Virus record (IMG/VR): IMGVR_UViG_3300046010_006992 | Coordinates: 1 to 21,669 of that record | Length of the DNA stretch: 21,669 bases | Direction: 5' to 3' (one strand) | Source of the DNA: a virus | In this document: in pieces, positions 1 through 19,010 of the stretch | Numbering within the stretch: the stretch's first letter is position 1 | How the letters are laid out: each line of letters opens with the position of its first letter | Made by a program: the position numbers and the translations under genes | The notes under the pieces: model-generated | What the model saw: the letters and a program-made list of their open reading frames with translations, nothing else | What the model was told of the DNA's origin: nothing | Databases searched by the model: none

Positions 1-2884
1 AACTTAATGTTTTCTGTCCATAAACTAATAAACCATTACCTGGGAGGAATGTCAAAGGATTAATTTTGTTAGTGTACAATACATCTCTTAAACCTTGAGT
101 TACCCCAATTGAAATAAACTGACCGCTAGTGGGTTGAATATAGCCAATTGCATTAAGGTTGTCTATTAAACCTCGTCTAGTTCCTGCAGGCGCCAACCAA
201 GGATAACTAATATTATCACTTTTTAACATTGCACGTAATACTGCATGACTTGATGGAACTACTACGGCGTTTCCATCAAGATCATTGGTTTGTCCTTGTG
301 GATAGTATAAACCAACGTAAGGACTTGTTGTATTCAATCCATATTCACCAGTTGAGGTAACCTCCAAACTGTTTGTGGCCCAAGCTTGGATGTCTGTACC
401 TGTAGCAACTAATCTCATAGGAGTATCACCAATAATAAACGCGGTGTTTTCTCTATCTTCATTTAAAGTAATCATGTTAGGAATCAACTCAGGATATCCA
501 GGACATGCGATTAAATTAAACTGATTGGCATCCTCACGTAATGCTGTGCTTGCATCAATTGACGCTTTGAGTGCAGCAACCACAACACCTCTTGGTGCTT
601 TTCTACCAAAGTTCGGAACTCCAGTAACATCAAATCCGCTAACACTGACCCAAGTATTCTTTTGTGAGGGCAATGATTCATTTGGATATGCTGCAGCATT
701 GAAATAATTTGTTCTAAACTCTTTGACATTATAACCGCTTGTTCTGGTATTCCATAGTAACATACCTCTTGGATATAGTGTTGGATCTGGAGCATCTAAA
801 TCAACATAATTACTTGTCAATAAAGTTGTAATTGGTGGAATTGTGTCTAATGCTGGATCTGTTGTGCCAGATGTTGCCCAACGTGCATCAGCAAAAATAA
901 TACCATTTTGGCTAACTGCATCTGTATTGTCAATAAGCACCCATTGATCTAACCCGTTTACACTTTGATAACGATATAATTTTGGATAATTTTCTAAATC
1001 GCTTGTATCTAACCATAAATCACCGTAGACTAAAGCATCACCATTGTCTTGTGTAGTGGGCTCTTCTGTACCAAGAATTACCCCGGACTCATTAGTATTA
1101 GATAAATTATAACCTCTAATATCGTTTGTTAAGTTCTGATAACCCAACCAAGCAGTTCCGTTGCTGACCATGATATCAACTCTACTTGGGGTATTGTAAT
1201 ACCATAAAGTTTCATTAGCAGGAGAAACATACGGTCTAGTGACTTTAGGTGTATAAGTAACTTCTTCTAAAGGTTCCCAATTGGTTCCATATAAGGCAGA
1301 GTCGCCCAAAGTTGGTGTCGCATAAACATTAGTTGCAGAATCAGTGATACCAACGTTAGCTAGAGGTGTTCCTGCACCATCTACTAGTAGTAGATCACCG
1401 CCAAGTTCGTGTCGCAAAGTCATTGCACCTGTGCTACTTAGTGCTGCTGAAACATATGGAATTCCTGCAGTAGCAACTGCCTGAATAAATCCGTTTACAG
1501 TAGCAGTCGCAATAGAAACAGTATATGTGCTTAAATTAGCTAATTGTACATTGGCTCTAGTTGTAAGAGTAAAACTTGCATTAATGTTTGCTGCACTAGG
1601 GCTTGTTGTATTTCCAGTAATTATTGTTGGCCCAGTAGATTTACGTTGCCATATATAATTCACTAACTGATTATTGTCATATGGATTATACTGATTGAAT
1701 ACTGTGCCTTGACTTACATTAATACCACCACCTGTAGGATCTAAAGCAAATGTTGCGGCAAAAATATTAGCATAACCATTAACTGTTAATGTGTCCCAAG
1801 TATTTGTAGTACTGTTAAACTCATTAACAATCATATTCATACCGTCACGTTGAGCTGTAGCAACTTGCCACACGCTGCCAGTTGGCTTCCCTACAAATGC
1901 ATTACCTTGCCAACTTGGAACTGACGTATAAGGAGCAATACTTGTAGCTGCCGCAGGATATGCACCAGGAGTAATACCTAAATCAGTTAATGCTGTTCCT
2001 GATACGTTTTGTATATTTGCTGCGCTGACTGTAGCTGCAGAATTAGCACTTATCACTAGTTGATTGTTTGCAATTCTTGCAATAATACCAGTAACTGCTG
2101 CACTGTTGATTGTATCTCGTACCACAGTTACATTGGACGAACCAGATAAAATAATACTTGTACCATTAATAGAAATAGTTCCGCCAGTTGATAATACTGG
2201 GTTTGTGACTGTTCCAGTCACTGACGGAATACCCATTTGCCAACCAGCATTTCCTACCAATTGCCAAGTGTTATTGTAAATTTTGTAAAATACAGGGTTA
2301 TATGCATTAGCTGCATTTACTGCGTAATCACCAATCGATCCAAAATTGACATTAGGTGTAAAACTATCGCCTGCTAGATATTCAGTACTAGTAATGACAT
2401 TAGGAGTCTTCTTCACCCAATTTTGAGTTGTAAAGTTCCATTCGTATACGCCCCAATTACTGCCTGCTGTATCTAACCATAAATTGCCGTTGCTAGGATT
2501 AGCTAAAGGTCTAATTGTAGTACCTTCAAGTGTCCCTAAATCAACGTCTGCTCTTTGTACATAAATTCTATTGCTGACACCTAATGCACTATATGCAGCC
2601 AATAAACCATATTCGTTTTGTTCATCCCCGTTAATTGCTGCACCACCTGCGGTAGTTTTAAATATCGGAGTACCAAAAGTTGTAATCAGGTCACGTTGAC
2701 TAGTGATTGTATATATTCTTCCTGCATTTTCAGCAAGAGTGCCAGCAGCATATGATGATCCACCTGGTGCTAACTTATTTTCTGCTGTAGCAAGTAACAC
2801 ATATGCTACTGAGCCTAAAGCAGCTGGTGCATAGTTACTTTCATCTATTACGGTAACTTGTACGCCTGGAGAAACTAAAGCCAT
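1..2884 (-). CDS. 18: Tail sheath protein gp18 (C-terminus cut by window edge)
   Basis: This is the contractile tail sheath subunit, which polymerises around the tail tube and contracts during infection. I read 961 codons open from the ATG at 2884 to the left edge. The N-terminus begins MALVSPGVQVTVIDES, a typical sheath start. The C-terminal third carries the conserved sheath core (for example GRKAPRGVVVAALKAS near residues 757-772, and PWLAPAGTRRG). The visible end reads GQKTL, the usual near-terminal sheath motif, so little is missing. T4 gp18 is about 660 residues, so roughly 300 residues are inserted centrally. The inserts include a segment resembling flagellin-hook IN modules near residues 218-304 and W-rich modules near residues 129-149 and 602-655. 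The start has a good ribosome site (GAGG, about 9 bases upstream) and a late promoter at 2911-2918. The family call is confident; the exact C-terminus is not visible. Confidence 0.93.
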   Translation of the reverse strand, partial: MALVSPGVQVTVIDESNYAPAALGSVAYVLLATAENKLAPGGSSYAAGTLAENAGRIYTITSQRDLITTFGTPIFKTTAGGAAINGDEQNEYGLLAAYSALGVSNRIYVQRADVDLGTLEGTTIRPLANPSNGNLWLDTAGSNWGVYEWNFTTQNWVKKTPNVITSTEYLAGDSFTPNVNFGSIGDYAVNAANAYNPVFYKIYNNTWQLVGNAGWQMGIPSVTGTVTNPVLSTGGTISINGTSIILSGSSNVTVVRDTINSAAVTGIIARIANNQLVISANSAATVSAANIQNVSGTALTDLGITPGAYPAAATSIAPYTSVPSWQGNAFVGKPTGSVWQVATAQRDGMNMIVNEFNSTTNTWDTLTVNGYANIFAATFALDPTGGGINVSQGTVFNQYNPYDNNQLVNYIWQRKSTGPTIITGNTTSPSAANINASFTLTTRANVQLANLSTYTVSIATATVNGFIQAVATAGIPYVSAALSSTGAMTLRHELGGDLLLVDGAGTPLANVGITDSATNVYATPTLGDSALYGTNWEPLEEVTYTPKVTRPYVSPANETLWYYNTPSRVDIMVSNGTAWLGYQNLTNDIRGYNLSNTNESGVILGTEEPTTQDNGDALVYGDLWLDTSDLENYPKLYRYQSVNGLDQWVLIDNTDAVSQNGIIFADARWATSGTTDPALDTIPPITTLLTSNYVDLDAPDPTLYPRGMLLWNTRTSGYNVKEFRTNYFNAAAYPNESLPSQKNTWVSVSGFDVTGVPNFGRKAPRGVVVAALKASIDASTALREDANQFNLIACPGYPELIPNMITLNEDRENTAFIIGDTPMRLVATGTDIQAWATNSLEVTSTGEYGLNTTSPYVGLYYPQGQTNDLDGNAVVVPSSHAVLRAMLKSDNISYPWLAPAGTRRGLIDNLNAIGYIQPTSGQFISIGVTQGLRDVLYTNKINPLTFLPGNGLLVYGQKTLS

Positions 2885-2910
2885 GTTGTTCTTCCTCTAT
2901 CTGTTAAAGA

Positions 2911-2918
2911 TATTTATC
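2911..2918 (-). promoter_or_regulatory. T4-type late promoter for gp18
   Basis: On the minus strand the sequence reads GATAAATA, close to the T4 late consensus TATAAATA. It ends 26 bases before the gp18 ATG, a spacing like that of the late motifs before gp13 and gp14 in this window. No -35 element is needed for this promoter class, which uses a phage sigma factor. The call rests on motif, position and gene type. Confidence 0.65.
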
Positions 2919-2961
2919 GAAACTGATAAAAAAAGTCAAATTGACTGCCCTTTGCAAAGGT

Positions 2962-3327
2962 ATGGGTAAATACCAAATGCAAAGACCATTATGTGCAGTA
3001 TGTGGGCACACGCCAGCTGCTGTGAACTATATCAAAAACAACATCCATCATTATAGAAAGATGTGTGATAGTTGTATTAGGAAGGGTAAAAAATTAAAAC
3101 CTAAGCCGTCGGCATGGTTTAAAGCAGGCTATAGGAAAAAAATGCATTGCGAAAAATGTGGGTATGTTGCAAAATTTCCTGACAAACAACTTACAGTTTA
3201 TCATGTAGATGGAAATTTAAAAAATTTATCTTCAATAAATTTAAAATCTGTTTGTTTAAATTGCAGAGTCGAAATTGCCAATAGTAGATTGCCTTGGCGA
3301 GAAAGTCCAATTACACCAGATTTTTAA
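2962..3327 (+). CDS. Zinc-ribbon, HNH-like conserved phage protein
   Basis: This 121-residue basic protein has two Cys pairs near its N-terminus (CAVC, CDSC), a third pair CEKC in the middle and a final CLNC. Between the last two pairs lies YHVDGNLKN followed by NLKSVC, the layout of an HNH (beta-beta-alpha metal) nuclease core. The first catalytic His position is Tyr and no His follows the last Cys pair, so catalysis is doubtful and a nucleic-acid-binding role is possible. From memory, short proteins starting M-x-K-Y with this Cys pattern are common in marine T4-like phages, usually annotated as hypothetical. I chose the ATG at 2962 over an in-frame TTG at 2941 because of that N-terminus. 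AAAGG precedes it but very closely. It lies on the opposite strand to its neighbours, and its end overlaps the dNMP kinase gene by 17 bases. Confidence 0.8.
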   Translation: MGKYQMQRPLCAVCGHTPAAVNYIKNNIHHYRKMCDSCIRKGKKLKPKPSAWFKAGYRKKMHCEKCGYVAKFPDKQLTVYHVDGNLKNLSSINLKSVCLNCRVEIANSRLPWRESPITPDF

Positions 3328-3907
3328 GAGCCCTGTACAAATCTTCTATACTAGCATTGTTTTCAATAACAGCATCAAAATCTGTTGTGGCCCAACTGTA
3401 TTCACTAGCATGAATTTCGGGCCAATCAACTTTCATACACTCTGGATGAAATCTTGCAGTTTTAAACCACTCAGGGTCTGGACCTCTAACAATTCTGACT
3501 ACTCTACCGCCTGCACGCCGTATGGCTGTGATTTCATTAGGAAATCTGCAGTCACTGATTACAATGCTGTCTTCTGACTTTCGTAGTTTATTTTCCAAAC
3601 TGGCAATCCAAATGTCATCATGAAATCCCTGACGACAAACTTCTGTACCCCAAAGTTGCAAAATAAGTCTCGGAGTTAATCCAGGCATTTTTAATCTTTC
3701 ACTCCACCATGGATCAATTTCTTCACGCCATTCACGAGCATGTTTAGTACGTCCTTCCAATAACTCTCGATCCCAACTAAACACCGATGCTACTGCATCT
3801 TTTAATGTAGCAGCAAAACTGTCTCGTTTGAAACCATGGAAGTTAACAAGATAATCGGCTGCAGTATCCTTGCCTGCGCCAATCAAACCGCAAATACCAA
3901 TAATCAT
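3311..3907 (-). CDS. 1: Deoxynucleoside monophosphate kinase (T4 gp1-like)
   Basis: The enzyme phosphorylates dNMPs to dNDPs with ATP in the cytoplasm, supplying phage DNA synthesis. The N-terminus carries a P-loop, GLIGAGKDT at residues 7-15, followed by FKRDSFAATLKDAV. The middle region LILQLWGTEVCRQGF and the later SIVISDCRFPNE match the phage dNMP kinase family. At 198 residues it is somewhat shorter than T4 gp1 (about 240). The ATG at 3907 has a GGAG ribosome site about 9 bases upstream. A sigma70-type promoter overlaps the end of gp13 just upstream, so the gene can be expressed early and independently of the structural gene before it. It converges on the zinc-ribbon gene. Confidence 0.9.
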   Translation of the reverse strand: MIIGICGLIGAGKDTAADYLVNFHGFKRDSFAATLKDAVASVFSWDRELLEGRTKHAREWREEIDPWWSERLKMPGLTPRLILQLWGTEVCRQGFHDDIWIASLENKLRKSEDSIVISDCRFPNEITAIRRAGGRVVRIVRGPDPEWFKTARFHPECMKVDWPEIHASEYSWATTDFDAVIENNASIEDLYRALKNLV

Positions 3908-3927
3908 AATATAAACTCCGTAAGCTT

Positions 3928-3956
3928 ATATTACATTATCCTATGACCCATGTCAA
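3928..3956 (-). promoter_or_regulatory. Sigma70-type early promoter for dNMP kinase
   Basis: On the minus strand there is TTGACA (3956-3951), a 17-base spacer and TAATAT (3933-3928). The -35 is perfect and the -10 matches 4 of 6 positions of TATAAT. The -35 lies inside the last codons of gp13. The predicted start, near 3921, leaves a leader of about 14 bases that contains the GGAG ribosome site for the kinase. Confidence 0.65.
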
Positions 3957-5099
3957 CGGTTGCGATCCATCAACATAGTTTTTCAAATCTTCTTCCAATT
4001 TTTCCATTTCTGCTTGCGCTTCTTGTAGCAAGGCTGCTCCATTCAATTGAGTGCCAGCTTGAGGACCCGCTATACTGGCAAATTTACCACGTGCCTGCCC
4101 TAAAATACTCTTACAAAATGCTAAAGCATATTCCTGCAACCATGGATAAACTTGTGGATCACTTAAAAGCATACTGTCTGGCTTGTAATTAAATATCCAA
4201 AGTAGAACACTTTCGGTATTGTTTAATCCATCCACTTCAGGACTCCAAATTTGTGTTTGGCTCAAATTAAAGCCAGTAACTGAATTAGATCCTAACGCTT
4301 GGGTGGCTTGCACTGTAATCACCGTATTACTATTGTTAACAGAAACTACAGTATATTGCCCACTATAGCCGCTTACAGGACAATTTTGAATGTACAAACT
4401 GTTGCCTGCAGCCAACGTAACTGGTTGCCCTAAATTAATGGTTATTGTACTGCCTATAGTTGTACCAGCAGCAGTTAAAGAATTTAAGGTAAAATAGGTA
4501 TGTCCATATTCTGGCATCTTGCGTACCAGCGTTAACTTCTTGGTTACACGATTCCAAGTGTAGTTCATGTAACCACCGAACATTGTCATTGCCAACTCTT
4601 GATACTGAGTGAATAATTCATAGTTTAGTAAACCTCCCACACGACCTGCCACTAACATATAAGTGTTCAAGTAACCACTAGCAAACGGTTCAAATTGACT
4701 TGCTGTTGTGCCGGTTGTACTACCTATGCCTCTGCGAAATATCTGTCTTACTTCCATTATATAGTTAGGAAGAATATATTCTTGCACTTCTGGTAACAAA
4801 TCTAAAAATGCATAGCTTTCTTCTACTGCGTTTTGTGCTTTCTGTCTATATTTTGTAAGTGCCTGTTTAATAGATAACTCATAGTGTTCTTTGTCCAGTT
4901 CTAAATCTACTATTTGATCACCTAACCGTAATCTTATATAATCGATCATTTCATTACGCAATTGATTTAAAGTTTGAATATTACCTGCAGCTTCAATTGC
5001 GCTGGCCTGACTTATAGGACCAGGTCCTCCAAGATTATAGGTGCGTAAACTCAGATCATTTTGTAAGTTAGGTTGAATAACAACATTTGCAGTAGTCAT
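3936..5099 (-). CDS. 13: Neck protein gp13
   Basis: This head-completion/neck protein joins the filled head to the tail. Residues of about 45-200 carry the gp13 core of marine T4-like phages: NEMIDYIRLRLGDQIVDLEL, then ALTKYRQ, EESYAFLDLLPE, IMEVRQIFRRGIG and LVRKMPE. The core resumes at SVLLWIFNYKPD near residue 297. Between them, residues of about 200-293 form a Thr/Ser/Gly/Val-rich, probably beta-stranded insert that I do not expect in ordinary gp13. I placed the start at the ATG at 5099 (MTTANVV..., 387 residues) because AGGA lies 8 bases upstream. An in-frame ATG at 5120 lacks a ribosome site and lies inside the loop of the preceding hairpin. The gene is on the opposite strand to gp14 and gp15. 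Confidence 0.9.
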   Translation of the reverse strand: MTTANVVIQPNLQNDLSLRTYNLGGPGPISQASAIEAAGNIQTLNQLRNEMIDYIRLRLGDQIVDLELDKEHYELSIKQALTKYRQKAQNAVEESYAFLDLLPEVQEYILPNYIMEVRQIFRRGIGSTTGTTASQFEPFASGYLNTYMLVAGRVGGLLNYELFTQYQELAMTMFGGYMNYTWNRVTKKLTLVRKMPEYGHTYFTLNSLTAAGTTIGSTITINLGQPVTLAAGNSLYIQNCPVSGYSGQYTVVSVNNSNTVITVQATQALGSNSVTGFNLSQTQIWSPEVDGLNNTESVLLWIFNYKPDSMLLSDPQVYPWLQEYALAFCKSILGQARGKFASIAGPQAGTQLNGAALLQEAQAEMEKLEEDLKNYVDGSQPLTWVIG

Positions 5100-5137
5100 A
5101 AAAAAAGTCCTGTTAACCATATTTAGCTAACAGGACT
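5100..5137 (-). terminator. Hairpin terminator overlapping the gp13 ribosome site
   Basis: On the minus strand a perfect 10-bp stem (AGTCCTGTTA paired with TAACAGGACT, positions 5137-5128 and 5115-5106) encloses a 12-base loop and is followed by seven T residues. It starts 5 bases after the stop codon of the 388-residue gene, as expected for an intrinsic terminator. The 3' arm contains AGGA, the gp13 ribosome site, and the T-run ends at the gp13 ATG. Confidence 0.8.
5120..5126 (-). promoter_or_regulatory. Late promoter motif in the hairpin loop, for gp13
   Basis: The minus strand reads CTAAATA within AGCTAAATATGG, inside the loop of the terminator hairpin. Its last base is 20 bases before the gp13 ATG, matching the spacing at gp14 (21) and gp18 (26). 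A transcript started about 6-7 bases downstream would begin near the 3' stem arm and lack the 5' arm. Confidence 0.6.
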
Positions 5138-5141
5138 AGGT

Positions 5142-6308
5142 TTAAGCTACCTTTAACAGAACAATATCAGTGTTGATTCTTCCATTGAGTTTTGTTTCTG
5201 TAGCCTTGATATCGTCTAAAAACTTTCTAAGAATAATTTTGCCTGCTTTGGCAAACTCCTTAAGCTTCTCTTCTGGCTTTCTCAAAGTTTTACTAATGCT
5301 CTTATCTGTGTCAAAATTTTCAATTCCGGTGCCTTTAACTGAAAGCTGACTATGAGATGCTGCAACGTATTTGCCCAATTTACGGGTTTTAGTATTATAA
5401 ACCCATAGTTCAGTGGAACCAATAATCTCAGCTGGATTGATACTGACCAATTTTAATTCTTTGAAATCCTTGGCATATTTAAGTTTTGCAGTTAATTTTT
5501 CTTTTGTTGGTGCTTTTTTAACTCGGGCTTTCTTGGTTGCCTGTTTTACTTGACGATATTCGTCCAACGCCAACAACACCAAATCCAACCAACTAATAAT
5601 TCTTTTGAAATCTGCTGCTTTATAATGTTTATAAGCTTCTGCAAGTTGGGAATCTTTTTTAGATTGTGCTAATTCCAATTCAAATTTTCTGTTTTCAAAC
5701 ACTGCTTTGTACTTGGGCAACTGTGCTTGAATAACTTTATTAGTTGTAAGAAAATCGTAAGGTTTAAAATTTGGCTTGGTATTTTTTACAATTTCGTCAA
5801 ACATACCTTCCATTTCGCCTATCAGTTCAGAAGTTTTTTCTGCCAGTCTATCTTGAATAGTAGGACGGTATTCTTGTGCCTTAGGTTTTGTAGTGATTTC
5901 TTCAGGATCAGGTTCAGTATCTGAAATTGCTGCAATGATAGACTTAGTAAGAAATTCAATATGCGTTGCCTTTAATGGCATACCTGCACGATGCGCCATT
6001 ACTAGGCTACATGCAGTCATAGGAATACTTCTGTCTGCACTACGTTTAAATGCTTTGACTTGTGTTTTGTCAAACATTCCAGATTTTTCAGCCCACTCCT
6101 CTACATGTTTTTTAGTGTCTTTTTGATTGTAAAAATAATTGTAGTAAAAGAAACTTTTACGCAATAGATGATCAAAGTCCTCGTCAGACCATTCTAAAGC
6201 ATCTGCGGGCCATTCAGGCTCGCCACCTGTGTATTTTTCATCCGCAAATAAAGGATTACGAACTCGGGGAGGTTTAGTTTTAATTTTAATTCCGGCAACT
6301 GTAGGCAT
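5142..6308 (-). CDS. Conserved phage protein of unknown function, 388 residues
   Basis: I do not recognise a named domain. The protein is Lys-rich and highly charged, with no signal peptide or membrane segment. It opens with a Pro-rich stretch (VAGIKIKTKPPRVRNPLF), followed by an acidic/aromatic segment WSDEDFDHLLRKSFFYYNYFY. Long helical, possibly coiled-coil stretches lie near residues 150-290, with a very basic linker, KKARVKKAPTKEKL, near 258-271. The last quarter contains ELWVYNTKTRKLG. The ATG is preceded by AAGGAG at ideal spacing and follows the upstream stop by one base, so it is co-transcribed with the 88-residue gene from a sigma70 promoter. That makes it early rather than structural. 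A nucleic-acid-binding role is only a guess from charge. Confidence 0.85.
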   Translation of the reverse strand: MPTVAGIKIKTKPPRVRNPLFADEKYTGGEPEWPADALEWSDEDFDHLLRKSFFYYNYFYNQKDTKKHVEEWAEKSGMFDKTQVKAFKRSADRSIPMTACSLVMAHRAGMPLKATHIEFLTKSIIAAISDTEPDPEEITTKPKAQEYRPTIQDRLAEKTSELIGEMEGMFDEIVKNTKPNFKPYDFLTTNKVIQAQLPKYKAVFENRKFELELAQSKKDSQLAEAYKHYKAADFKRIISWLDLVLLALDEYRQVKQATKKARVKKAPTKEKLTAKLKYAKDFKELKLVSINPAEIIGSTELWVYNTKTRKLGKYVAASHSQLSVKGTGIENFDTDKSISKTLRKPEEKLKEFAKAGKIILRKFLDDIKATETKLNGRINTDIVLLKVA

Positions 6309-6309
6309 A

Positions 6310-6576
6310 TCAAACTCCTTTTGTCAAGTAAGCCAAAGTAATGTACTGTTCAAGATTACTAACCAGTTCATCAAATTTGGTTAGTTCATTATTATATTGA
6401 GCTGTAACTTTTCCTATTCTTCTACATTCTATCCACAAATTATTTACAAGTTTTTGAGTTTCCGTCACTGATTGGTACATTCTTTGTAGATCAATTTTTT
6501 CTCTGCCAGACGGCATTCCAGCTATCTGATCCCTGCATTTGTACAGTCTAGATTGGCAGTTAAGCATATCCGGCAT
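6310..6576 (-). CDS. Small early protein of unknown function, 88 residues
   Basis: This short, predominantly helical protein has heptad-like spacing of Leu/Ile/Val, notably in the last 40 residues (NNELTKFDELVSNLEQYI), and could form a coiled coil. It has three Cys residues but no pairing that suggests a zinc site. I know no function for it. The first ATG, at 6576, is 6 bases downstream of a perfect-looking -10 element, so the message would start at or next to the start codon. No ribosome site is present. A second in-frame ATG at 6567 also lacks a good ribosome site. It is the first gene of a two-gene early unit. Confidence 0.75.
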   Translation of the reverse strand: MPDMLNCQSRLYKCRDQIAGMPSGREKIDLQRMYQSVTETQKLVNNLWIECRRIGKVTAQYNNELTKFDELVSNLEQYITLAYLTKGV

Positions 6577-6582
6577 TTAACA

Positions 6583-6611
6583 AGTATAGCACCTTTAGTT
6601 TTTATTGTCAA
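6583..6611 (-). promoter_or_regulatory. Strong sigma70 early promoter
   Basis: On the minus strand there is TTGACA (6611-6606), exactly 17 bases of spacer, then TATACT (6588-6583). The -35 is perfect and the -10 matches 5 of 6 positions. It reads leftward into the 88- and 388-residue genes. It is the best host-type promoter I see in the window. Confidence 0.85.
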
Positions 6612-6617
6612 TCTAAC

Positions 6618-6625
6618 AATAAATA
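6618..6625 (+). promoter_or_regulatory. T4-type late promoter for gp14-gp15
   Basis: The plus strand reads AATAAATA, 21 bases before the gp14 ATG, close to the T4 late consensus TATAAATA. It is back to back with the leftward sigma70 promoter; the two core elements are only 6 bases apart. Confidence 0.7.
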
Positions 6626-6646
6626 CATGATAAAAGGGTTAAATGT

Positions 6647-8026
6647 ATGCCTAGGCTAAGTATGTGGCGCCCAAACCACACTAACGATTACAAATTTTTT
6701 GACAAATTAATATCCGAACAATTTACAGTGGGCGGCACAGGCATTCTTCTCCACAAATATATAGGCACAAACAGCCAGGCAAATAGTTACGTCACTTCGA
6801 ATTCTACTACATCAGGTGCTACATTACATTTTAGCAATGTGGCTAATTTTGAACCAGGACAAACTGTACAAGGTGTAGGTATAGGTGCAAATACTGTTAT
6901 TGTTAGCACCAACACTGGAAGCAATACTGTTGTCCTAAGCAGTAACATAACATCAAACATTTCAACAGGACAATCCTTAAGTATATTTTGGAAAGATGCA
7001 TCACAACCCGTTTATCAAAATCAAAGTGCTCTAAATATTCAAGACTTATTGTTTTTAGAAAATAGGGACAGGAAATATGATACTTCCGTCTATACTCTTC
7101 GGGGTGTTTATACTGTTAATGATAACGATTTTGATTTAAATCAATTTGGTATATTTTTAAGTGCAGACACAATTTATATGACGTTTCATTTAAATGACAT
7201 TGTGGCTATTTTAGGTCGCAAAATTATGTCGGGTGATGTATTGGAACTTCAACATAAAAAGGACTATTATCCATTAAATGAGGAAATTCCCGCTTTATTA
7301 AAAAGATATTATGTGGTGCAAGATATAACATTTGCAGCAGAGGGATTCAGTCAAACTTGGTGGCCGCATTTATTAAGAGTTAAAATGACTCCGCTAGTAG
7401 ACAGCCAAGAATACAAGGATATAATTAATCAAATTACTGGCACTGACAGTCAAGGAAATATAACACCATTGGGTTCATACTTAAGCACCTTAGATAAATT
7501 ATTAGAAATAAACGATGCTGTAATAACTCAAGCTGAAATTGAAGTTCCTAAAAGCGGAACCAACGTTGATGAATTGTATGTAGAACCAATTAATCCGGAT
7601 GGTAGTCCAGGAGATCCCACTGGAGTGCAAGTTGATATTACCCAGATGACAGTGGATTCCACCGTAAATTTTGCAGCTACCCAACCAACAACTCCAGATA
7701 CCAACATTCCAGCATATTTGGGAGGGGACGGAACTCCGCCTAATGGCTGGCCCGTATCTGCCAGAACTAGTTTCCCTCAGGACCCCACTATCGGCGATTA
7801 CATATTGCGTACAGATTTTGTTCCTAATAGGTTATTTAGATATGATGGTACAAGATGGACCAAGATAGAAGATAGTGTTAGAACAGATCTAACACCAGGA
7901 CCAAATAATCGTACACAACGTAGTTTATTTGTAAATAATACAGACACCTTTATAGACACCGAAGGCCGAACACAGCCTGTCAGACAAAGTCTTAGCAAAG
8001 CATTAACCCCAAAGGCAGATAATTAA
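6647..8026 (+). CDS. 14: Neck protein gp14 (extended)
   Basis: This virion neck/connector protein is the partner of gp13. The start, MPRLSMWRPNHTNDYKFFDK, and the core from about residue 127 to 260 (QDLLFLENRDRKYD, DFDLNQFGIFL, RYYVVQDITF, WWPHLLRVKMTPL) match the gp14-type protein of marine T4-like phages as I recall them. The order of elements also parallels T4 gp14, but similarity to T4 itself is weak. The protein has 459 residues against 256 in T4. Residues of about 45-115 form a Gly/Thr/Val/Asn-rich beta-type insert, and residues 381-409 carry a GDYILRT...RYDGTRW module. AAGGG lies 8 bases before the ATG. Its stop overlaps the gp15 start as TAATG. Assignment as gp14 rather than a generic neck protein is likely, not certain. 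Confidence 0.78.
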   Translation: MPRLSMWRPNHTNDYKFFDKLISEQFTVGGTGILLHKYIGTNSQANSYVTSNSTTSGATLHFSNVANFEPGQTVQGVGIGANTVIVSTNTGSNTVVLSSNITSNISTGQSLSIFWKDASQPVYQNQSALNIQDLLFLENRDRKYDTSVYTLRGVYTVNDNDFDLNQFGIFLSADTIYMTFHLNDIVAILGRKIMSGDVLELQHKKDYYPLNEEIPALLKRYYVVQDITFAAEGFSQTWWPHLLRVKMTPLVDSQEYKDIINQITGTDSQGNITPLGSYLSTLDKLLEINDAVITQAEIEVPKSGTNVDELYVEPINPDGSPGDPTGVQVDITQMTVDSTVNFAATQPTTPDTNIPAYLGGDGTPPNGWPVSARTSFPQDPTIGDYILRTDFVPNRLFRYDGTRWTKIEDSVRTDLTPGPNNRTQRSLFVNNTDTFIDTEGRTQPVRQSLSKALTPKADN

Positions 8027-9642
8027 TGTCTCTCCAACAATTTTTTTACGATAATCAAATACGTAGATACATTATTCAATTCATGCGAATGGTATCTAAC
8101 TTTCAAGTAGAATTTGGAAAAGACCGTAATGGTGTTACTGCGCTACAAAGAGTGCCAGTCATATACGGTGATAGTAGTAGACAAGCTGCAGCTATAATCA
8201 AACAAAACAGCGAAAACATAATGAATGCAGTTCCAGCAATGGCAGTTTATGTAAGCGGATTAACCTATGACAGAGCAAGGCTTCAAAATCCTAGTTATGT
8301 AGGAAAATTGAATTTAAGAGAACGATATTATGATCCACAAACAGGTAATTACAGCACTACACAAGGTGATGTTTTAACTGTAGATAGATTAATGCCTGTA
8401 CCTTACAAATTAACTATCAAATTAGATATTTGGACTAGCAATACCGAACAAAAACTTCAATTATTAGAACAACTTTGTATTTTATTCAATCCAGCACTAG
8501 AAATTCAAAGCACAGATAACTATATTGATTGGACTAGCATCAGCTATGTATTATTAACTGATGTTCAATGGAGTTCTAGAACTGTTCCTCAAGGCACAGA
8601 AAACCCAATTGATATAGCCACATTAACTTTTGAAATTCCTATTTTTATAAGTGCTCCAGCATTGGTGCGTAAATTGGGAGTTATTCAAAGAATTGTTGCT
8701 AGCATATTCGATGGTTCGGGCGGTTTGAACGATGCTATATATGATGAATCCACTCTTTTAAGCAGGCAGTACTATACTCCTATGAATTATGGAGTGATTC
8801 TATTAGAAAACGAACTGAGATTAGTAAAATATAATCAACCTGTAAAGAATGAATTTGGTGCACAGATTATAAAAGAACTAGTAGCTAATGTCAGTGCAAA
8901 CACCACAGTAATATTGACCGACACTGACGGAATTGAGGCTAACATGGTTATTACGGGTGCTAGTATTGCCAGCAATGTTAATCCCACTATTAGAACAGTG
9001 CCTAACTGTTTAGTGTTACAAGTAAACGGTGACACGGTATTAACCAGTAATGTAATTACGGGCAATATTGGAGATAAAATTGCATTTACTGCAGTGACCA
9101 GAAAAGCAGGTGTAAGTGAAGTTTGGAGAGACGTAATTAATGTTTATGGAAACTTAGTAAACGGGGCAAGTTCTATCACTTTAGAATTGGATGACGGCAA
9201 TCAAGTAGTTGGAACGATTGCATACAATCCTATAGATGATACAAGTTTAATATGGACTGCAGACATAGATTCAATTCCTGTAAACACTTTGCAGCCTGTA
9301 AATGCTATAATAGACCCTTTAAGTTCGAGACCTAATAGAGACTTGCAAGACTTAGCTCCGGGCACAAGATATTTGCTCATAAACGATTATGTTTCACAAG
9401 AAGGTGCTCAACCGGTATATAATTGGTTAGGTGTAGATGATACCCCTTTAGAGGCATATGCCAATGACATTATTCAATTTGACGGTCAGCATTGGTCAGT
9501 TGTATTTGATTCAAGATACGAAACTACAGTTCAATATGTAACAAACTTAACTACCAGTGTTCAATATAGATGGAATGGATCTACTTGGATTAAGAGTTAC
9601 GAAGGTTATTACCCGTCAGGAAAATGGTTAATAGCAATTTAA
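8026..9642 (+). CDS. 15: Tail sheath stabiliser / tail completion protein gp15 (extended)
   Basis: In T4, gp15 caps the tail, binds the last sheath ring and connects the tail to the neck. Here the N-terminus MSLQQFFYDNQIRRYIIQF parallels the T4 gp15 start with its F-Y-x-x-x-x-R-R-Y pattern. The region VPVIYGDSSRQ, the PVPYKLTIKLDIWTSN segment near residues 125-139 and ATLTFEIPIFISAP near 198-211 fit the marine phage version. The protein is 538 residues, about twice the T4 length. The extra part begins after residue 280 with a beta-type, Thr/Val/Asn-rich domain and ends with two W-rich stretches (FDGQHWSVVFDS, YRWNGSTWIKSYEG). It is translationally coupled to gp14 (TAATG) and overlaps the Nudix gene by 19 bases. 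Confidence 0.82.
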   Translation: MSLQQFFYDNQIRRYIIQFMRMVSNFQVEFGKDRNGVTALQRVPVIYGDSSRQAAAIIKQNSENIMNAVPAMAVYVSGLTYDRARLQNPSYVGKLNLRERYYDPQTGNYSTTQGDVLTVDRLMPVPYKLTIKLDIWTSNTEQKLQLLEQLCILFNPALEIQSTDNYIDWTSISYVLLTDVQWSSRTVPQGTENPIDIATLTFEIPIFISAPALVRKLGVIQRIVASIFDGSGGLNDAIYDESTLLSRQYYTPMNYGVILLENELRLVKYNQPVKNEFGAQIIKELVANVSANTTVILTDTDGIEANMVITGASIASNVNPTIRTVPNCLVLQVNGDTVLTSNVITGNIGDKIAFTAVTRKAGVSEVWRDVINVYGNLVNGASSITLELDDGNQVVGTIAYNPIDDTSLIWTADIDSIPVNTLQPVNAIIDPLSSRPNRDLQDLAPGTRYLLINDYVSQEGAQPVYNWLGVDDTPLEAYANDIIQFDGQHWSVVFDSRYETTVQYVTNLTTSVQYRWNGSTWIKSYEGYYPSGKWLIAI

Positions 9643-10055
9643 CAGGTTGTGGTGCATTAATTTTCTGTACTAGATCTCAACGATACTTATTTTTATTGCG
9701 AGATAAAGGCAAATATGCCAATACTTGGGGTTTAGTTGGCGGGAAAATAGAACCCAATGAATCTATTTTATCAGGACTAGAAAGAGAAATCAATGAAGAA
9801 CTAGGCGGTAAAATTCTTGGTGCAAAAATTTTACCTATAGAAAAATATACAAGTGATAATGAAAAATTCATTTATCATACGTTCCTGATCAAAGTAGAAG
9901 AAGAATTCATGCCCGATTTAAACGCAGAACATAAAGGGTATTGTTGGGTGCCTTTAGAGGATTATCCCAAGCCTTTACACCCCGGAATTTTACGTATACT
10001 TAATTCAGAAACAGTTAAGAAAAAACTAGATATACATCAAACAATCAAAGATTGA
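9624..10055 (+). CDS. Nudix hydrolase
   Basis: Nudix enzymes cleave nucleoside diphosphates linked to another moiety. The Nudix box is complete in its catalytic positions: G40-x5-E46-x7-R54-E55-I56-x-E58-E59-x-G61; only the final hydrophobic position is Gly. The N-terminal CGALIFCTRSQRYLFLLRDKG and TWGLVGGKIEPNES fit the fold. At 143 residues it is a stand-alone Nudix domain. The substrate cannot be deduced; nucleotide sugars, ADP-ribose derivatives, mutagenic dNTPs or capped RNA are all family substrates. It starts inside the end of gp15 with AGGA just upstream, so it is co-transcribed with the late neck genes. Its end converges on and overlaps the oxygenase gene by 11 bases. Confidence 0.9.
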   Translation: MVNSNLTGCGALIFCTRSQRYLFLLRDKGKYANTWGLVGGKIEPNESILSGLEREINEELGGKILGAKILPIEKYTSDNEKFIYHTFLIKVEEEFMPDLNAEHKGYCWVPLEDYPKPLHPGILRILNSETVKKKLDIHQTIKD

Positions 10056-10638
10056 ACACAATACTAGTTCGTGGTTCTTGGCTTTGATTGGGCACAACTT
10101 CGTGCCATAACCAGCCCGGCCAAATCATTAACAAACCCGGATAGGGATCATACTTTGTGCTGCTCATATTATACCAGTTAGTGGGATCTTTAACTGCGTA
10201 AAGGAAGTCAAAAAACTCTCTATAAGTTTGATGCGGGTAAAAAGTAATAGGGCTACTTCCTGGCGGAGTTTGTAAATAGTAAATTCCACTTATACTGCAT
10301 TGGCTATGTAAATGTTTAGCGTGTGCAGAGCCTTCCTTAAAACTATTTAAGAACATGTAAGGACGCCAATTTACTGCATTACTATCATAGCCCTGTAGTT
10401 CTAAAAATTCTTTTCCTTTTTGAAGAATGAATTCCCCGAAGTCCTTAAATTGCGGTTCATAAAATAAATTTCTAGTACCATGAGTTGTTCTGCCGTTATA
10501 GTAAAACTGTTCATTTAGGTTTGTAGTAGGATTATCCCAAATTTGCTTGGCATTGTTTAATACTGGTTCAATCCATTCAGGATGAAAACTTTTACCTATA
10601 ACACTGGGAAACCAATGATCTAAAGATATTGTACTCAT
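10045..10638 (-). CDS. Putative 2OG-Fe(II) oxygenase (CHP02466/2OG-FeII_Oxy_5 type)
   Basis: This 197-residue protein has the double-stranded beta-helix signature of this oxygenase family. HLHSQCSISGIYYLQTPPGS (109-128) gives the HxH metal pair H109/H111 in place of the usual HxD, as I recall for this family. GLLMIWPGWLWHEVVP supplies the distal H179, and R190 (EPRTSIVFNL) is placed to bind 2-oxoglutarate. The family has been found widely in marine phages, but the substrate is unknown. It is the last gene of the 13-gene block, and its start overlaps the preceding oxygenase stop as ATGA. Confidence 0.85.
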   Translation of the reverse strand: MSTISLDHWFPSVIGKSFHPEWIEPVLNNAKQIWDNPTTNLNEQFYYNGRTTHGTRNLFYEPQFKDFGEFILQKGKEFLELQGYDSNAVNWRPYMFLNSFKEGSAHAKHLHSQCSISGIYYLQTPPGSSPITFYPHQTYREFFDFLYAVKDPTNWYNMSSTKYDPYPGLLMIWPGWLWHEVVPNQSQEPRTSIVFNL

Positions 10639-11168
10639 GATAAAGACTTATTAAAAAATAATTGTACACTCAATCTCGGAAATTCCGCAGCATTGGTTAC
10701 CATTGTGGTACTGTGCCATAACGGAGGAATAAACCATATTGCCGAATTAGGATGAGGGAATACCCAACCCTGCCCTAAACTTTCATGATCATATAAAAAC
10801 ATTCCACCCCAATTCCAATTCCAGCTTTCGTTGATGTAAATGGTGCTGCTTAATCTAGGACTAGTGTCACTGGAATCATGATGCCAATTAATTTGTGTGC
10901 CAGGTAACCAAATATGCATAAAGCAAGTTAAATTTTGATAATCTTTGAATATGGGATCTAAGGCACAATATTTGTCGATAAAATATTGTCTGTATTCCTC
11001 AAGTGGCAGTATCAATACTGGACTGTAACTTCCGTACTCTAAACCTGCACCCCATCGTCCCATATTATTAATTTCAAATGAAGGAGTTCCTTTAGATTTT
11101 TCAAATTTATCCCGCAGATTTTGTAAAACATCTGGTTCTAAAAAATTACTAATTCGATTTATTATCAT
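10635..11168 (-). CDS. 2OG-Fe(II) oxygenase, prolyl-hydroxylase-like
   Basis: With the ATG at 11168 the protein has 177 residues. The metal triad is visible as H96-x-D98 (NWHHDSSD) and H152 (PLWHSTT), with R165 (EFPRLSVQLFF) for 2-oxoglutarate. LSSTIYINESWNWNWGGMFLYD between them is the usual strand pattern of prolyl-4-hydroxylase-type enzymes. Substrates of this superfamily include protein prolines, other side chains, sugars and small molecules, and nothing here settles which. I preferred the ATG over the in-frame TTG at 11174. The gene follows the upstream stop after two bases and runs into the next oxygenase with an ATGA overlap. Confidence 0.88.
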   Translation of the reverse strand: MIINRISNFLEPDVLQNLRDKFEKSKGTPSFEINNMGRWGAGLEYGSYSPVLILPLEEYRQYFIDKYCALDPIFKDYQNLTCFMHIWLPGTQINWHHDSSDTSPRLSSTIYINESWNWNWGGMFLYDHESLGQGWVFPHPNSAIWFIPPLWHSTTMVTNAAEFPRLSVQLFFNKSLS

Positions 11169-11170
11169 AA

Positions 11171-11722
11171 TCAATACTCGGTTGTAAGAAAGAACAATTG
11201 AAACAGCCTACCATTTTCTTTGCTTTGACCAAAATAATCTACACTGTTATGAAATAAATCACTATGATAAAGCACTAGTCTATTATATCTATTACCAATT
11301 ACGTCGTATAACTCCCATTTAGTCATATCTTGTGATTCGTAATTTTCTAGTTCAGATGCTCGAATAGCCCCAGTTTTTTTATATCTATAAAACCCAGTGC
11401 CACCACTAAGTGGAGCATCGGGTGTCAAATATATAACTCCTGCCCAAGTATTAAAATGGTCTGTGTGTATCCAACTACGATCTCTACTTGTGGCTAATTC
11501 AAATGATCCGGTTAAACCGTCACGTTCATTCCAGTTAGTAATTTCACCCGCTGCGTTGTACAAGATTTGACTTAGGGTAGCTTTAGTTGATTCGTTTAAA
11601 AAAGAACGTGTTCTTATTCCAGGAAAATTTTCCCGTTTAGCAAATTCTTGCTGTAAGGCAAAATCCCTAACACCGTCTGGATTACTGTAAAAATCATCAA
11701 TAACAATTACATTTGTTTGCAT
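11171..11722 (-). CDS. DUF6445-like oxygenase-fold protein, copy 2
   Basis: This 183-residue protein carries IHTDHFNTWAGVIYLTPDAP near residues 85-104, giving H86-x-D88. YHSDLFHNSVDYFG offers the distal H158, and R172 (NGRLFQLFF) is the likely 2-oxoglutarate ligand. The pattern matches proteins labelled DUF6445, which resemble 2OG-Fe(II) oxygenases. I assign the family from memory; activity is unproven. It is a close paralog of the gene immediately upstream, sharing the order of every motif from FYxxPDxxRxFALQQE to RLFQxFF. The spacing to that gene is two bases. Confidence 0.83.
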   Translation of the reverse strand: MQTNVIVIDDFYSNPDGVRDFALQQEFAKRENFPGIRTRSFLNESTKATLSQILYNAAGEITNWNERDGLTGSFELATSRDRSWIHTDHFNTWAGVIYLTPDAPLSGGTGFYRYKKTGAIRASELENYESQDMTKWELYDVIGNRYNRLVLYHSDLFHNSVDYFGQSKENGRLFQLFFLTTEY

Positions 11723-11724
11723 GA

Positions 11725-12282
11725 TTAAAATTGTGTGTCAAAGAAAAATACTTGGAACAGTCTTGCATCTTGTGTGTTGCTGCCGAAATAATCTAAACTG
11801 CTATGAAATAAATCGCCGCGATACATAACTAACCGATTATATCTATTTGCGATCACATCAACCTTTTCCCACTTAGTCATGTCCTGTGGATCGTAAGGTT
11901 CTTTTCCCATTTCTGTTGCCGTCATCGCTTTATTCTTTTTATGCAAGAATATACCTGTACCGCCTGTAATAGGAGCATCCGGAGTTAAGTAGCATACTGC
12001 TGCCCATTTATTAAAATGATCAGTGTGGATCCAGCTGCGATCACTTGCATATGTTAATTGAAAAGATCCAGTATAACCGTTGTCGCTGTACCAATTTGTA
12101 ATTTCTCCGCCTGCATACCAAACTATTGTTTGAATCGTTTCCTTAACGTCTGGTGTTAAAAAACTACGTGTTCTATTACCGGGGAAATTTCCAGTTACAT
12201 TATATTCTTGCTGTAACGCAAATTCTCTAATAGCATCGGGATCGCCATAAAAATCATCAGTGATGATTAAATTAGTTCTCAT
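11725..12282 (-). CDS. DUF6445-like oxygenase-fold protein, copy 1
   Basis: This 185-residue protein is collinear with the gene that follows it. It shows IHTDHFNKWAAVCYLTPDAP (H86-x-D88), YRGDLFHSSLDYFG (H160) and DARLFQVFFF (R174), so all likely metal and 2-oxoglutarate ligands are kept in both copies. By eye more than half of the positions agree between the two. The differences cluster in loops near residues 30-35, 66-80 and 115-140, suggesting divergence in the substrate pocket. The start overlaps the stop of the GT10 gene as ATGA, so it is translationally coupled to it. Confidence 0.83.
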   Translation of the reverse strand: MRTNLIITDDFYGDPDAIREFALQQEYNVTGNFPGNRTRSFLTPDVKETIQTIVWYAGGEITNWYSDNGYTGSFQLTYASDRSWIHTDHFNKWAAVCYLTPDAPITGGTGIFLHKKNKAMTATEMGKEPYDPQDMTKWEKVDVIANRYNRLVMYRGDLFHSSLDYFGSNTQDARLFQVFFFDTQF

Positions 12283-13112
12283 AGTATTATTTGACTGTTA
12301 TCAGTATTTAATTTAAATTTTTTAATAATAAATTTTTCGATTTGTTCTTCTATTCTTTGAAAAACACTTTTTTCCCAATATGGTCGTGCAAGCTCATAGT
12401 TTTCTTTAATATAAGGCATCATCTCGTCATAGGTATCCGCTGTCAAATTTGAAATAATGTATTCAAATTCTTCAATAGTTCTGAACTGCAAAATTCCCTT
12501 TGGATTAAAGTATTGCTCTATGTTATGACAACCAAAGTAAATTGGAACTGTATAAGTTTTGAAACAATCTAGTAGTTTTTCTGTAAACATGTTGGGCATG
12601 TCTTGATTTTCACAGGCTATATGAAACTTAGCATTAATGAAAAAAGGATCTTTGTTGGGAATCATTGGCGGGCTTCTATGAAATTTATATTCAAACACAC
12701 CCATGATCTTAGCATTTCGATATCGATTTAATATTTTATATCTCATTCTATAAGGAGCACCATTAATTTTACTGCTCATTATAAAACTGATTTGATTTTG
12801 TTTTTGTAAAGGTAAATTGTCTCCTACCCAAGATCCCACTGCACAGAATTCTTGTGCCTGTGGCATAGCTACAAGTCTAGGATCATATGCTAAAATTAAA
12901 TCAAATTTATTTTGACATTCTTTAACCATTCCGTAAAATTTAATATAAAGGTTGGGCGGCTCATTTTGCACTAACACATTTATATCTGCATCAGGATTAT
13001 AGTTAACGTTATCAAAACAAACAGCAACTTTCAACGGAAATTTTTTAGTAAATCCAAAAGAATGGTTTAGCCCATATGCAGGCATATACCCGCGAGATTC
13101 TATTTCAAACAT
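12279..13112 (-). CDS. Glycosyltransferase family 10 (fucosyltransferase-like)
   Basis: GT10 enzymes transfer fucose (or a related 6-deoxy sugar) from GDP-sugar donors to glycans. The C-terminal donor-binding region is clear: FHIACENQDMPNMFTEKLLD near residues 163-182 matches the family F-x-x-x-x-E-N-x-x...T-E-K signature. VPIYFGCHNIEQYFNPKG follows near 189-206. The N-terminal half is poorly conserved, as is normal. At 277 residues it is slightly shorter than bacterial FucTs. I placed the start at the ATG at 13112, which overlaps the upstream stop as TAATG, rather than at an in-frame TTG at 13127. No GDP-fucose synthase is in the window, so the donor must come from the host or be another GDP-6-deoxyhexose. 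Confidence 0.85.
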   Translation of the reverse strand: MFEIESRGYMPAYGLNHSFGFTKKFPLKVAVCFDNVNYNPDADINVLVQNEPPNLYIKFYGMVKECQNKFDLILAYDPRLVAMPQAQEFCAVGSWVGDNLPLQKQNQISFIMSSKINGAPYRMRYKILNRYRNAKIMGVFEYKFHRSPPMIPNKDPFFINAKFHIACENQDMPNMFTEKLLDCFKTYTVPIYFGCHNIEQYFNPKGILQFRTIEEFEYIISNLTADTYDEMMPYIKENYELARPYWEKSVFQRIEEQIEKFIIKKFKLNTDNSQIIL

Positions 13113-13873
13113 TAGTATTTTACCCAATTACCGGTTACACCACAGCGACCATGGACGTCCCACGGAACTTGTATAACATCATCTAGTAGATTGAATATTC
13201 TCAGAAAATAATATAAGGCATATTCAACGTCTTGATAATAAAATTTTATATTTTCCATACTACTTTGCGCACAGGCAAATATCAATGCTTCGTATTGATC
13301 TATTTTATCTCTATGCATCCCGTGAGCCACAGTATACGTACCTGTTAATGCTCCGTTAACAATTAAATCTCTAGGCAATTGTTCAGGTGTTAAAAAATCA
13401 ATTTGCGGTCCTGACCAGGACATTGGTTTTTTAAGAAAAAATTTATTCCGATTTTGTTCAGTGTATAAATCCAATTTAAATGTTTCATCAAACCAATATC
13501 GTCCACACAGTTTTGTTACAAAGTCAAATTCTTTAAGGTAATTTTTAAAATGTTTAAGAAACTCAATCATCATTAGACATTCACAATAGCTCTTATTAGA
13601 ATAAGTCCTTACTGTGTTAGCTATAGTAGAATTTAAATTTTCAAGTTGAAAATAATTTACATTTGGTAAATTATGTAATTCACTTAGATTTGTTGCACTG
13701 CTGTCTATTAGAAAAATAGTGCTGCCTGGCGCCAATTGATTACATGAATTAATAGTTTTATAAGTTTGCTCTAATCTTTCTTCTGTTGAAAATACTGTAC
13801 GTTTTTTTGTTCCTTTGAAAGGCCGATTAGGATCTAGTTCTATACTGGAAGTTATAAAAAATGCATGTTTCAT
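13112..13873 (-). CDS. Possible glycosyltransferase, unassigned family
   Basis: I do not recognise this 253-residue protein with certainty. The beginning (MKHAFFITSSIELD) is a beta-strand leading to a loop. STIFLIDSSATN (51-62) looks like a second strand of a Rossmann-like GT-A fold. FDFVTKLCGRYWFDE (116-130) resembles the K-x-x-G-R-Y-W/x segment seen in some phage and capsule glycosyltransferases. Its position between two glycosyltransferases, with 4-base ATGA and TAATG overlaps on either side, supports a glycan role. No transmembrane segment is visible. The function is inferred mainly from context. Confidence 0.75.
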   Translation of the reverse strand: MKHAFFITSSIELDPNRPFKGTKKRTVFSTEERLEQTYKTINSCNQLAPGSTIFLIDSSATNLSELHNLPNVNYFQLENLNSTIANTVRTYSNKSYCECLMMIEFLKHFKNYLKEFDFVTKLCGRYWFDETFKLDLYTEQNRNKFFLKKPMSWSGPQIDFLTPEQLPRDLIVNGALTGTYTVAHGMHRDKIDQYEALIFACAQSSMENIKFYYQDVEYALYYFLRIFNLLDDVIQVPWDVHGRCGVTGNWVKY

Positions 13874-15683: not shown

Positions 15684-16375
15684 ATTAAGTTTTTAAATAA
15701 TTTCTTTTCACTAAGATCTGCATAATTTTCCCACCCACCACAATCGGGATTATTTTCGGGTACTTGATCCATTAGTATGATTCCCCGGGCAGCATCTTCT
15801 GGAGTCATATACATATGCCAACCGCAAATTTCACCATCATCCTCCCATTGGCTTATAGTTAAATCCCTGCCGTCATATCTTGCTTTACTTAACCAATCAT
15901 AAGCATCTTTGTCATCAGTGAGAATCATACCTCCGCGACCAATTGGCACACGTTTTTTTATTTGGAAACTACAAACATGCAACCCACCCTGATACATTCC
16001 CTTGCGCCATCTTGTTGCAGCATCCCAGATGTTATAGGGTTTCAGTTGATACATACCTGACCATTCTTCATGTCTGAATGCGGGGACGCACCCTGCGTGA
16101 ATGATATTCATCGGAATACTTTGATATGTATGCTTTGGGATTTCAATTACACCGCGAGCTTGTACGTATTTCAAACATAAAAAAACTCCATTGGTACAAC
16201 AATCCACTGCTACTGCATATTTTGATCCGGCAAAATCCGCAACTTTACGTTCAAAAATTTCTACTGCATCACGTGGATCAGTCCAGTTGTACCCCAATTT
16301 TTTTAACTCCGCCAATTCCGGTCTTTGAAAATGATCTGGCAGTCGCCCGCTTGGCCAACTATTAAATTTAGTCAT
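15680..16375 (-). CDS. DegT/DnrJ/EryC1/StrS-type aminotransferase, short form
   Basis: This family makes amino sugars from nucleotide-linked keto-sugars using PLP. The visible signatures are VDCCTNGVFLCLKY (57-70, phosphate-binding loop), IWDAATRW (116-123, with D118 contacting the PLP ring) and CSFQIKKRVPIGRGGMILTD (135-154). In the last, K141 is the expected PLP lysine; the usual G-E-G-G is G-R-G-G here. The product has only 231 residues against about 370-400 for the family, ending shortly after the AARGIILMDQ segment, so the small C-terminal domain is missing. The stop is joined to gmd by an ATGA overlap. With GMD next door, a GDP-perosamine-synthase-like role is plausible, but a truncated enzyme may be inactive or have another partner. 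Confidence 0.82.
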   Translation of the reverse strand: MTKFNSWPSGRLPDHFQRPELAELKKLGYNWTDPRDAVEIFERKVADFAGSKYAVAVDCCTNGVFLCLKYVQARGVIEIPKHTYQSIPMNIIHAGCVPAFRHEEWSGMYQLKPYNIWDAATRWRKGMYQGGLHVCSFQIKKRVPIGRGGMILTDDKDAYDWLSKARYDGRDLTISQWEDDGEICGWHMYMTPEDAARGIILMDQVPENNPDCGGWENYADLSEKKLFKNLI

Positions 16376-16898: not shown

Positions 16899-16901
16899 AT
16901 G

Positions 16902-18983: not shown

Positions 18984-19010
18984 GCCTAATTGAATTAGTG
19001 AATTTGTAAT

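Follow-up and report, generated by a model that had tools for sequence, protein, structure and literature searches.

We found that the gp13-like neck gene of a T4-related phage is preceded by a hairpin that holds both a predicted late promoter and the gene's ribosome-binding site, and we consider it very likely that this element acts as a temporal switch of the T4 gene e type, in which early read-through RNA would be silent and late RNA translated. The phage is represented by a 21.7-kb fragment (21,669 nucleotides (nt); IMG/VR record IMGVR_UViG_3300046010_006992; hereafter the window), and the hairpin occupies 5137-5106 on its minus strand, between the stop codon of phrog_11903 and the start of gp13. 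The case is built on the sequence itself, covariation of the stem, conserved promoter spacing, an early-type promoter upstream and a sigma factor gene in relatives. A late promoter nested in this hairpin had been proposed in an earlier note on this DNA, which also called gp13 a neck gene, an identification borne out by the match to phrog_211 (Table 1).

In its most stable RNA fold, 5137-5106 forms 14 pairs (-19.0 kcal/mol), among them a perfect 10-bp stem with CTAAATA in its loop at 5126-5120. The layout given in the earlier note, a 10-bp stem with CTAAATA in the loop and AGGA in the 3′ arm followed by seven T residues and the ATG, stands in all respects save one: stem and T-tract share a base. 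The first of the seven T is also the last base of the stem, and the element is therefore either 10 bp plus T6 or 9 bp plus T7. A 121-nt piece around the hairpin folds at -30.5 kcal/mol, compared with a mean of -18.4 for shuffled sequences (z -4.1; 0 of 200 shuffles), and the hairpin tops the ranking of terminator-like sites in 1-20000, where such sites are not in excess overall (13 versus 12.1 expected). An Rfam search of the window returned no matches at the gathering score. The longest open frame begins at the loop ATG (5120). We rejected this as the gp13 start because an ATG at -21 is rare, occurring in just 8 of 80 relatives' leaders, six of them from the window's nearest kin, and position 5099 is the likely start.

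Table 1. Features of the gp13 leader and its surroundings, with positions in the window and the basis for each assignment (SD, Shine-Dalgarno; aa, amino acids).
Feature	Position	Strand	Basis
5′ arm AGTCCTGTTA, only in read-through RNA	5128..5137	-	Sequence, covarying pairs
3′ arm TAACAGGACT, holds the ribosome site	5106..5115	-	Sequence, covarying pairs
TAAATA in the loop (context GCTAAATA), predicted late (gp55-type) -10 element	5120..5125	-	Conserved spacing to ATG
AGGA, SD of gp13, in the 3′ arm, predicted paired in read-through RNA	5108..5111	-	Sequence, fold
Seven-T tract between ribosome site and start codon, possible terminator tail	5100..5106	-	Sequence; optional in relatives
gp13 start ATG	5099-5097	-	Sequence
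Predicted late RNA 5′ end, sixth base past TAAATA	5114	-	Spacing; SD begins 3 nt later
gp13-like neck / head-tail adaptor gene	3936..5099	-	phrog_211, E 5e-30
phrog_11903 gene, function unknown, co-directional, probably early	5142..6308	-	Found upstream of gp13 in relatives
88-aa gene, first of the upstream operon	6310..6576	-	Sequence, relatives
Predicted early sigma70-type promoter, TTGACA-17-TATACT, TG before the second hexamer	6583..6611	-	Sequence, relatives
Predicted late promoter (ATAAATA) for the divergently oriented structural gene at 6647	6619..6625	+	Sequence
Predicted late promoter GATAAATA ahead of the tail sheath gene, a late gene used for comparison	2911..2918	-	Sequence

The arrangement recurs in related phages. 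A scan of IMG/VR with gp13 yielded 366 relatives, the best 80 of which were kept and gave 49 distinct 50-nt leaders. A second scan, with a distant member as query, yielded 55 loci, partly on the same contigs; 52 of the 55 were used and gave 40 distinct leaders, with starts chosen by a script that prefers an SD. Left out were L251, L259 and L260, which are cut near the gp13 5′ end, and L245, whose chosen start abuts TAAATA. The combined set holds 81 distinct gp13 leaders. In the first set TAAATA ends 17-22 nt before the ATG in every leader (49/49), AGGA, GGGA or AGGG lies within the last 18 nt in 47, and the stem beats at least 99% of 5′-arm shuffles in 45. Across the combined set TAAATA ends 15-22 nt from the ATG in 81 of 81 leaders and the SD lies within the stem in 77, while the stem passes the shuffle test at the 1% level in 70 and at the 5% level in 75. 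GCTAAATA is present in 35 of the 81 and ATAAATA in 29, and the two bases ahead of TAAATA are A or G, then C, in 38.

Covariation of the stem was tested on a structure-blind alignment of 48 distinct leaders, with 12 pairs and 500 shuffles. Compensatory double changes were found at 11 of the 12 pairs, compared with 7.9 in shuffled alignments, and one shuffle in 500 reached 11. Double-change cells numbered 78 against 21 expected (0/500), and 85.2% of cells were paired compared with 71.9% after shuffling (0/500), a value that fell to 36-47% when the partner was slid; the number of pair types and the covariation score were likewise unmatched by any of the 500 shuffles. Alignment of the same junction in relatives, the check suggested in the earlier note, thus revealed compensatory stem changes, with stem and loop conserved; stem register and loop length differ between relatives. 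In an arm-swap control between leaders, swapped arms scored a mean of 16.8 compared with 26.8 for own arms, with a 95th percentile of 26.5. Since this percentile is high because many arms are alike, we relied on the covariation test instead. A 26-row alignment of leaders picked by register was not used, because the choice of register favours structure. A degenerate form of the hairpin pattern precedes gp13 in every viral contig where it was matched (54/54), many of which had also appeared in the first gp13 scan, and a mobile promoter cassette is therefore not supported.

We modelled the late RNA as beginning six bases past TAAATA, a spacing that we take from T4 late promoters and that puts the window's predicted start point at 5114. 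With this start, 71 of the 79 leaders whose SD was recognised have it begin 2-4 nt into the predicted late RNA. The median predicted cost of opening the SD is 11.8 kcal/mol in the full RNA and 0.95 kcal/mol in the late RNA, and a drop of 3 kcal/mol or more is predicted for 75 of 78 leaders. In the window it is 14.0 kcal/mol in read-through RNA versus 0.9 in late RNA (0/300 shuffles). The positive controls T4 e (14.2 versus 4.1 kcal/mol) and T4 49 (9.8 versus 1.8) also dropped, and the window's gp18 leader showed no excess (4.4 versus 2.4, reached by 71 of 300 shuffles). These models predict that the SD is hidden in RNA reading through from upstream and that the late element is placed such that RNA from the predicted start point would lack the 5′ arm. 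When a longer downstream stretch is included, the window's late-RNA SD is predicted to pair partly with the coding region (AGGA unpaired 0.07-0.31), and late access may therefore be incomplete.

The genes upstream of gp13 have the features of an early operon. The phrog_11903 gene is present in 79 of 80 loci, the remaining locus (L073) being cut short, and is co-directional with gp13 in 79 of 79. Among nine other phage regions around homologues of this gene, four have an RNase H gene close by, which we take to indicate an early setting; one of the remaining regions is unannotated and four are less clear. The 88-aa gene was matched in 28 of the 80 loci and 11 distinct leaders of it could be placed. 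All 11 carry a sigma70 promoter matching 11-12 of the 12 consensus bases, and TATTTAT, the reverse complement of ATAAATA, was seen by eye in 10. From these sequences, gp13 appears to lie downstream of co-directional early genes.

Late-type elements and a candidate factor to read them are also found in these phages. The gp18 leaders of the same loci have ATAAATA within 60 nt in 38 of 40 distinct cases, CGATAAATA in 23. In pieces of six contigs plus the window, TAAATA clusters 15-29 nt before open frames; these 15 nt contain 77 occurrences and the following 25 nt contain 29, in a count that had no shuffled control. A second TAAATA peak lies 5-9 nt before open frames (G001-G006 pieces, L105-L142). 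Of 16 related records, 11 encode a gp55-like late sigma factor; these are all nine named phages and two (G001 and G003) of the seven contigs from the window's clade, the five contigs in which it was not found all being partial. RaK2, 121Q, GAP32 and PHA46 have it in all four cases searched. Collectively, stem covariation, predicted accessibility, promoter spacing, the early-type promoter and the sigma factor in relatives strongly support the proposal that a late promoter lies inside the ribosome-site hairpin.

Leaders of this kind have been described in T4 and its relatives. According to two articles (PMC3014915; PMC2988022), the ribosome-binding sites of T4 e, soc, 49 and I-TevI and of Aeh1 mobE lie within a helix; in T4 e and I-TevI, long early transcripts form this helix and an adjacent late promoter circumvents it. 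The window element shares with the e group (e, 49, soc, I-TevI/II/III, segB and Aeh1 mobE) a late gene inside an early or middle transcription unit, a ribosome-site helix in the long RNA, and a late promoter whose position leaves the 5′ part of the helix out of late RNA. The fold that we computed for T4 e likewise puts TAAATA in the loop, and its 3′ arm contains AGGAGG. Judged by sequence, the element would act like the T4 gene e leader. It differs in gene and phage group, guarding a virion neck gene of jumbo phages; in its very short predicted leader, whose start lies 3 nt before the SD (12-13 nt in T4 e and 49 with their upstream late motifs); and in the frequent U-tract of gp13 leaders, T7 in the window, compared with a longest T run of 2-3 in T4 e, soc and 49. 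The earlier note had likened the hairpin to those of e, soc and 49. The likeness holds for e and 49, whose opening costs fall as in the window, but not for soc, which gave no signal in the same test. The predicted late promoter itself resembles the Aeh1 type, in which, according to PMC2988020, a/gC replaces TA before TAAATA, as in GCTAAATA; the window's gp18 promoter, by contrast, is GATAAATA, in keeping with the ATAAATA of most gp18 leaders. For phage CBB, PMC5259590 predicts a gp55-like factor and, ahead of structural genes, ATAAATA promoters, and a term search of its main text for hairpin, stem, secondary structure, ribosome binding and read-through found none of these. We found no account of such a hairpin before gp13 in the open literature searched, supplements being outside the search.

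Annotated phages matching the window's gp13 comprise 55 records (for example Atu_ph07, GAP32, RaK2 and PA5oct), each below 60% identity and none reaching 80% query coverage. Among named phages we examined 15 gp13 leaders; the neighbouring upstream gene is co-directional in 11 of them and divergent in four. Ten of the 11 co-directional isolates (RaK2, Muenster, 121Q, SD-2_S15, GAP32, XbC2, CBB, PHA46, SNUABM_47 and Kaldavass) form a strong SD hairpin, on whose 5′ side TAAATA lies, with opening costs of 11.9-16.7 kcal/mol (0/300 shuffles each); because they are related, they are not ten independent events. Opening costs in the four divergent-neighbour phages were 1.2, 1.6, 4.5 and 6.9 kcal/mol. 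The leaders of the RaK2/121Q/GAP32/CBB group resemble the window's in the strong SD hairpin, TAAATA on the 5′ side, an ATG just after and co-directional upstream genes. They differ in that TAAATA overlaps or adjoins the 5′ arm rather than occupying a small loop and ends 29-34 nt from the ATG, and in having other upstream genes and other stem sequences. For RaK2, 121Q and Kaldavass the annotated gp13 start was shifted 12-18 nt downstream before the opening test. In these three phages gp13 is annotated at ATGs within the hairpin (L083:2974, L086:2935 and L104:935), and starts just past the hairpin look better.

Several observations weigh against a switch before gp13. CTAAATA is not enriched as a word (6 in the window versus 6.9 expected), and the promoter assignment therefore rests on position and conservation. 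The literature searched held no transcript data for the window phage or its relatives, and the sigma factor comes from related records, the window being a fragment. The stem fails the 1% test in 11 of 81 leaders. Taken overall, G-U pairs clearly outnumber A-C pairs (36 to 15), as would be expected of RNA rather than of a DNA palindrome, yet the core stem shows no clear difference (14 to 11). Stems at no more than 1 in 100 shuffles also occur in 8 of 38 gp18 leaders, close kin of the window among them. T4 soc, a published precedent, was without signal (1.7 versus 1.4 kcal/mol). PA5oct, the remaining co-directional isolate, shows weak pairing (4.9 kcal/mol, 14/300 shuffles), and the 6.9 kcal/mol of Vibrio phage 2.275, which has a divergent neighbour, is weak yet reached by 0 of 300 shuffles. 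Finally, L061 and L072/L074 keep TAAATA and have a weak stem or none despite a co-directional upstream gene. In these loci the upstream gene ends about 25 nt before gp13, and a ribosome terminating on it might keep the site open; L243 also combines a short gap with a weak stem.

In the switch that we propose, start point, timing, termination and translational effect are the steps that we infer. Early in infection, host RNA polymerase would start at the sigma70 promoter (6611-6583), cross the two upstream genes and head towards gp13. Read-through RNA would fold into the hairpin, hiding AGGA such that ribosomes could not start, and the U-tract would probably also end part of the early transcripts, in the window and in about two fifths of its relatives. 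At late times, RNA polymerase carrying the gp55-like sigma factor would start at the loop TAAATA and make a message from about 5114 that lacks the 5′ arm. With a leader of about 15 nt and the ribosome site exposed, gp13 would then be made alongside other virion proteins.

The alternative that survives best, which we nevertheless judge unlikely, is that the hairpin is mainly the intrinsic terminator of the upstream early operon and that its overlap with the SD and TAAATA reflects compactness, with no translational control. Like an ordinary rho-independent terminator, it has a G+C-containing stem followed by U residues, and in the window a strong stem runs directly into the T-tract. At least five T occur in the last 12 nt of 31 of the 81 gp13 leaders compared with 10 of 294 SD-bearing starts of these phages, a comparison in which the 294 may include gp13 and the 81 leaders are related. 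Moreover, in L244 and L245, which belong to the window's clade, the gp13 hairpin has been lost, and folding shows a separate strong terminator-like hairpin just upstream in its place. By contrast, the longest T run is at most 3 in 39 of the 81 leaders, and in 31 of those 39 the stem passes the 1% test. The U-tract is thus not conserved with the stem among the 81 leaders, and since the stem is kept without it, we regard it as an optional addition, probably selected in some lineages, rather than part of the conserved core. In some leaders the stem instead extends towards the ATG. Unlike an ordinary terminator, the stem holds a promoter-like element and, in 77 of 81 leaders, the SD, which a terminator need not hold. 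Longer stems in leaders without a U-tract were a trend only (P 0.08). The terminator function claimed in the earlier note is thus favoured by the window's own U-tract and by its enrichment at gp13 over other starts, but fits poorly with the many leaders that have short T runs.

We offer a broader version of the switch tentatively, as possible rather than probable: the same 32 bases would serve as terminator of the early operon, as translational lock for RNA that escapes termination, and as the late promoter that makes lock-free RNA, with terminator, lock and gene orientation evolutionarily interchangeable as means of keeping gp13 silent early. Such interchangeability is suggested by members without the T-tract, by those that lack the lock but have a separate terminator-like hairpin, and by the divergent-neighbour phages without a strong hairpin. 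L258 has no hairpin, and no co-directional frame of at least 70 aa lies within about 750 nt upstream of its gp13.

We also considered a role at the DNA level, in which the inverted repeat would be the operator bound by a dimeric phage protein that regulates the central late promoter. The palindrome is centred on the -10 element, and the similar G-U and A-C counts in the core stem would fit such a site. However, the letters of the arms vary among relatives while complementarity is kept, whereas a binding site would conserve letters. Register and loop length vary as well, and the late-type promoter of gp18 lacks a generally conserved stem (30 of 38 leaders above 1/100 shuffles). We consider an operator very improbable. 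Least credible is a stability or processing element of the read-through RNA, with late translation arising from cleavage in the loop rather than from a new start: T4 uses mRNA processing by RegB and host RNases widely (PMC3014915), and the loop is A/U-rich, but TAAATA is invariant, keeps a near-fixed distance from the ATG, and resembles the elements before gp18 and those predicted before CBB structural genes.

If gp13 is controlled by the switch proposed here, the early-silent, late-active leader apparently extends beyond the lysis, capsid-decoration, recombination and homing genes of T4 relatives, as our data suggest. A covarying version would guard the neck gene in a large, mostly uncultivated phage group and an analogous one in the cultivable RaK2/GAP32 group. 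The element offers a signature by which genes kept from early synthesis may be recognised in sequence. The leaders also form a natural series, from lock plus U-tract through only the lock or only a terminator-like hairpin to neither, in which to ask what makes neck protein harmful when it is made too soon.

Besides gp13, a genome scan listed three starts that combine TAAATA with an SD held in a stem and are possible further switches: L106:13939 (+), a short frame; L116:4745 (-), a frame of 238 aa; and L137:13394 (-), a tail sheath gene. The scan did not list gp13 of G006, whose start sits on a piece boundary.

The window encodes a tail sheath protein, a dNMP (deoxynucleoside monophosphate) kinase, the gp13-like head-tail adaptor, the phrog_11903 protein, a phrog_11591 structural protein and a gp15-like sheath stabiliser. 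Its gp13 has 387 aa, compared with about 250-270 aa annotated in Atu_ph07, PA5oct, RaK2 and 121Q, and by eye contains a central T/S/N-rich insertion. Between the dNMP kinase and tail sheath genes, on the opposite strand, the frame at 2941-3327 (+) has four CxxC motifs and by eye resembles an HNH/zinc-ribbon endonuclease. The cluster at 10045-18983 (-) resembles, again by eye, sugar or glycan genes (nucleotide-sugar dehydratase, acetyltransferase-like, aminotransferase-like and glycosyltransferases) together with several small oxygenase-like proteins, and 17925-18983 matches Pfam glycosyltransferase group 1. At 19824-21668 (-), a frame cut by the window end carries long collagen-like GPIGPQGPQ repeats and is perhaps a tail-fibre or whisker protein.

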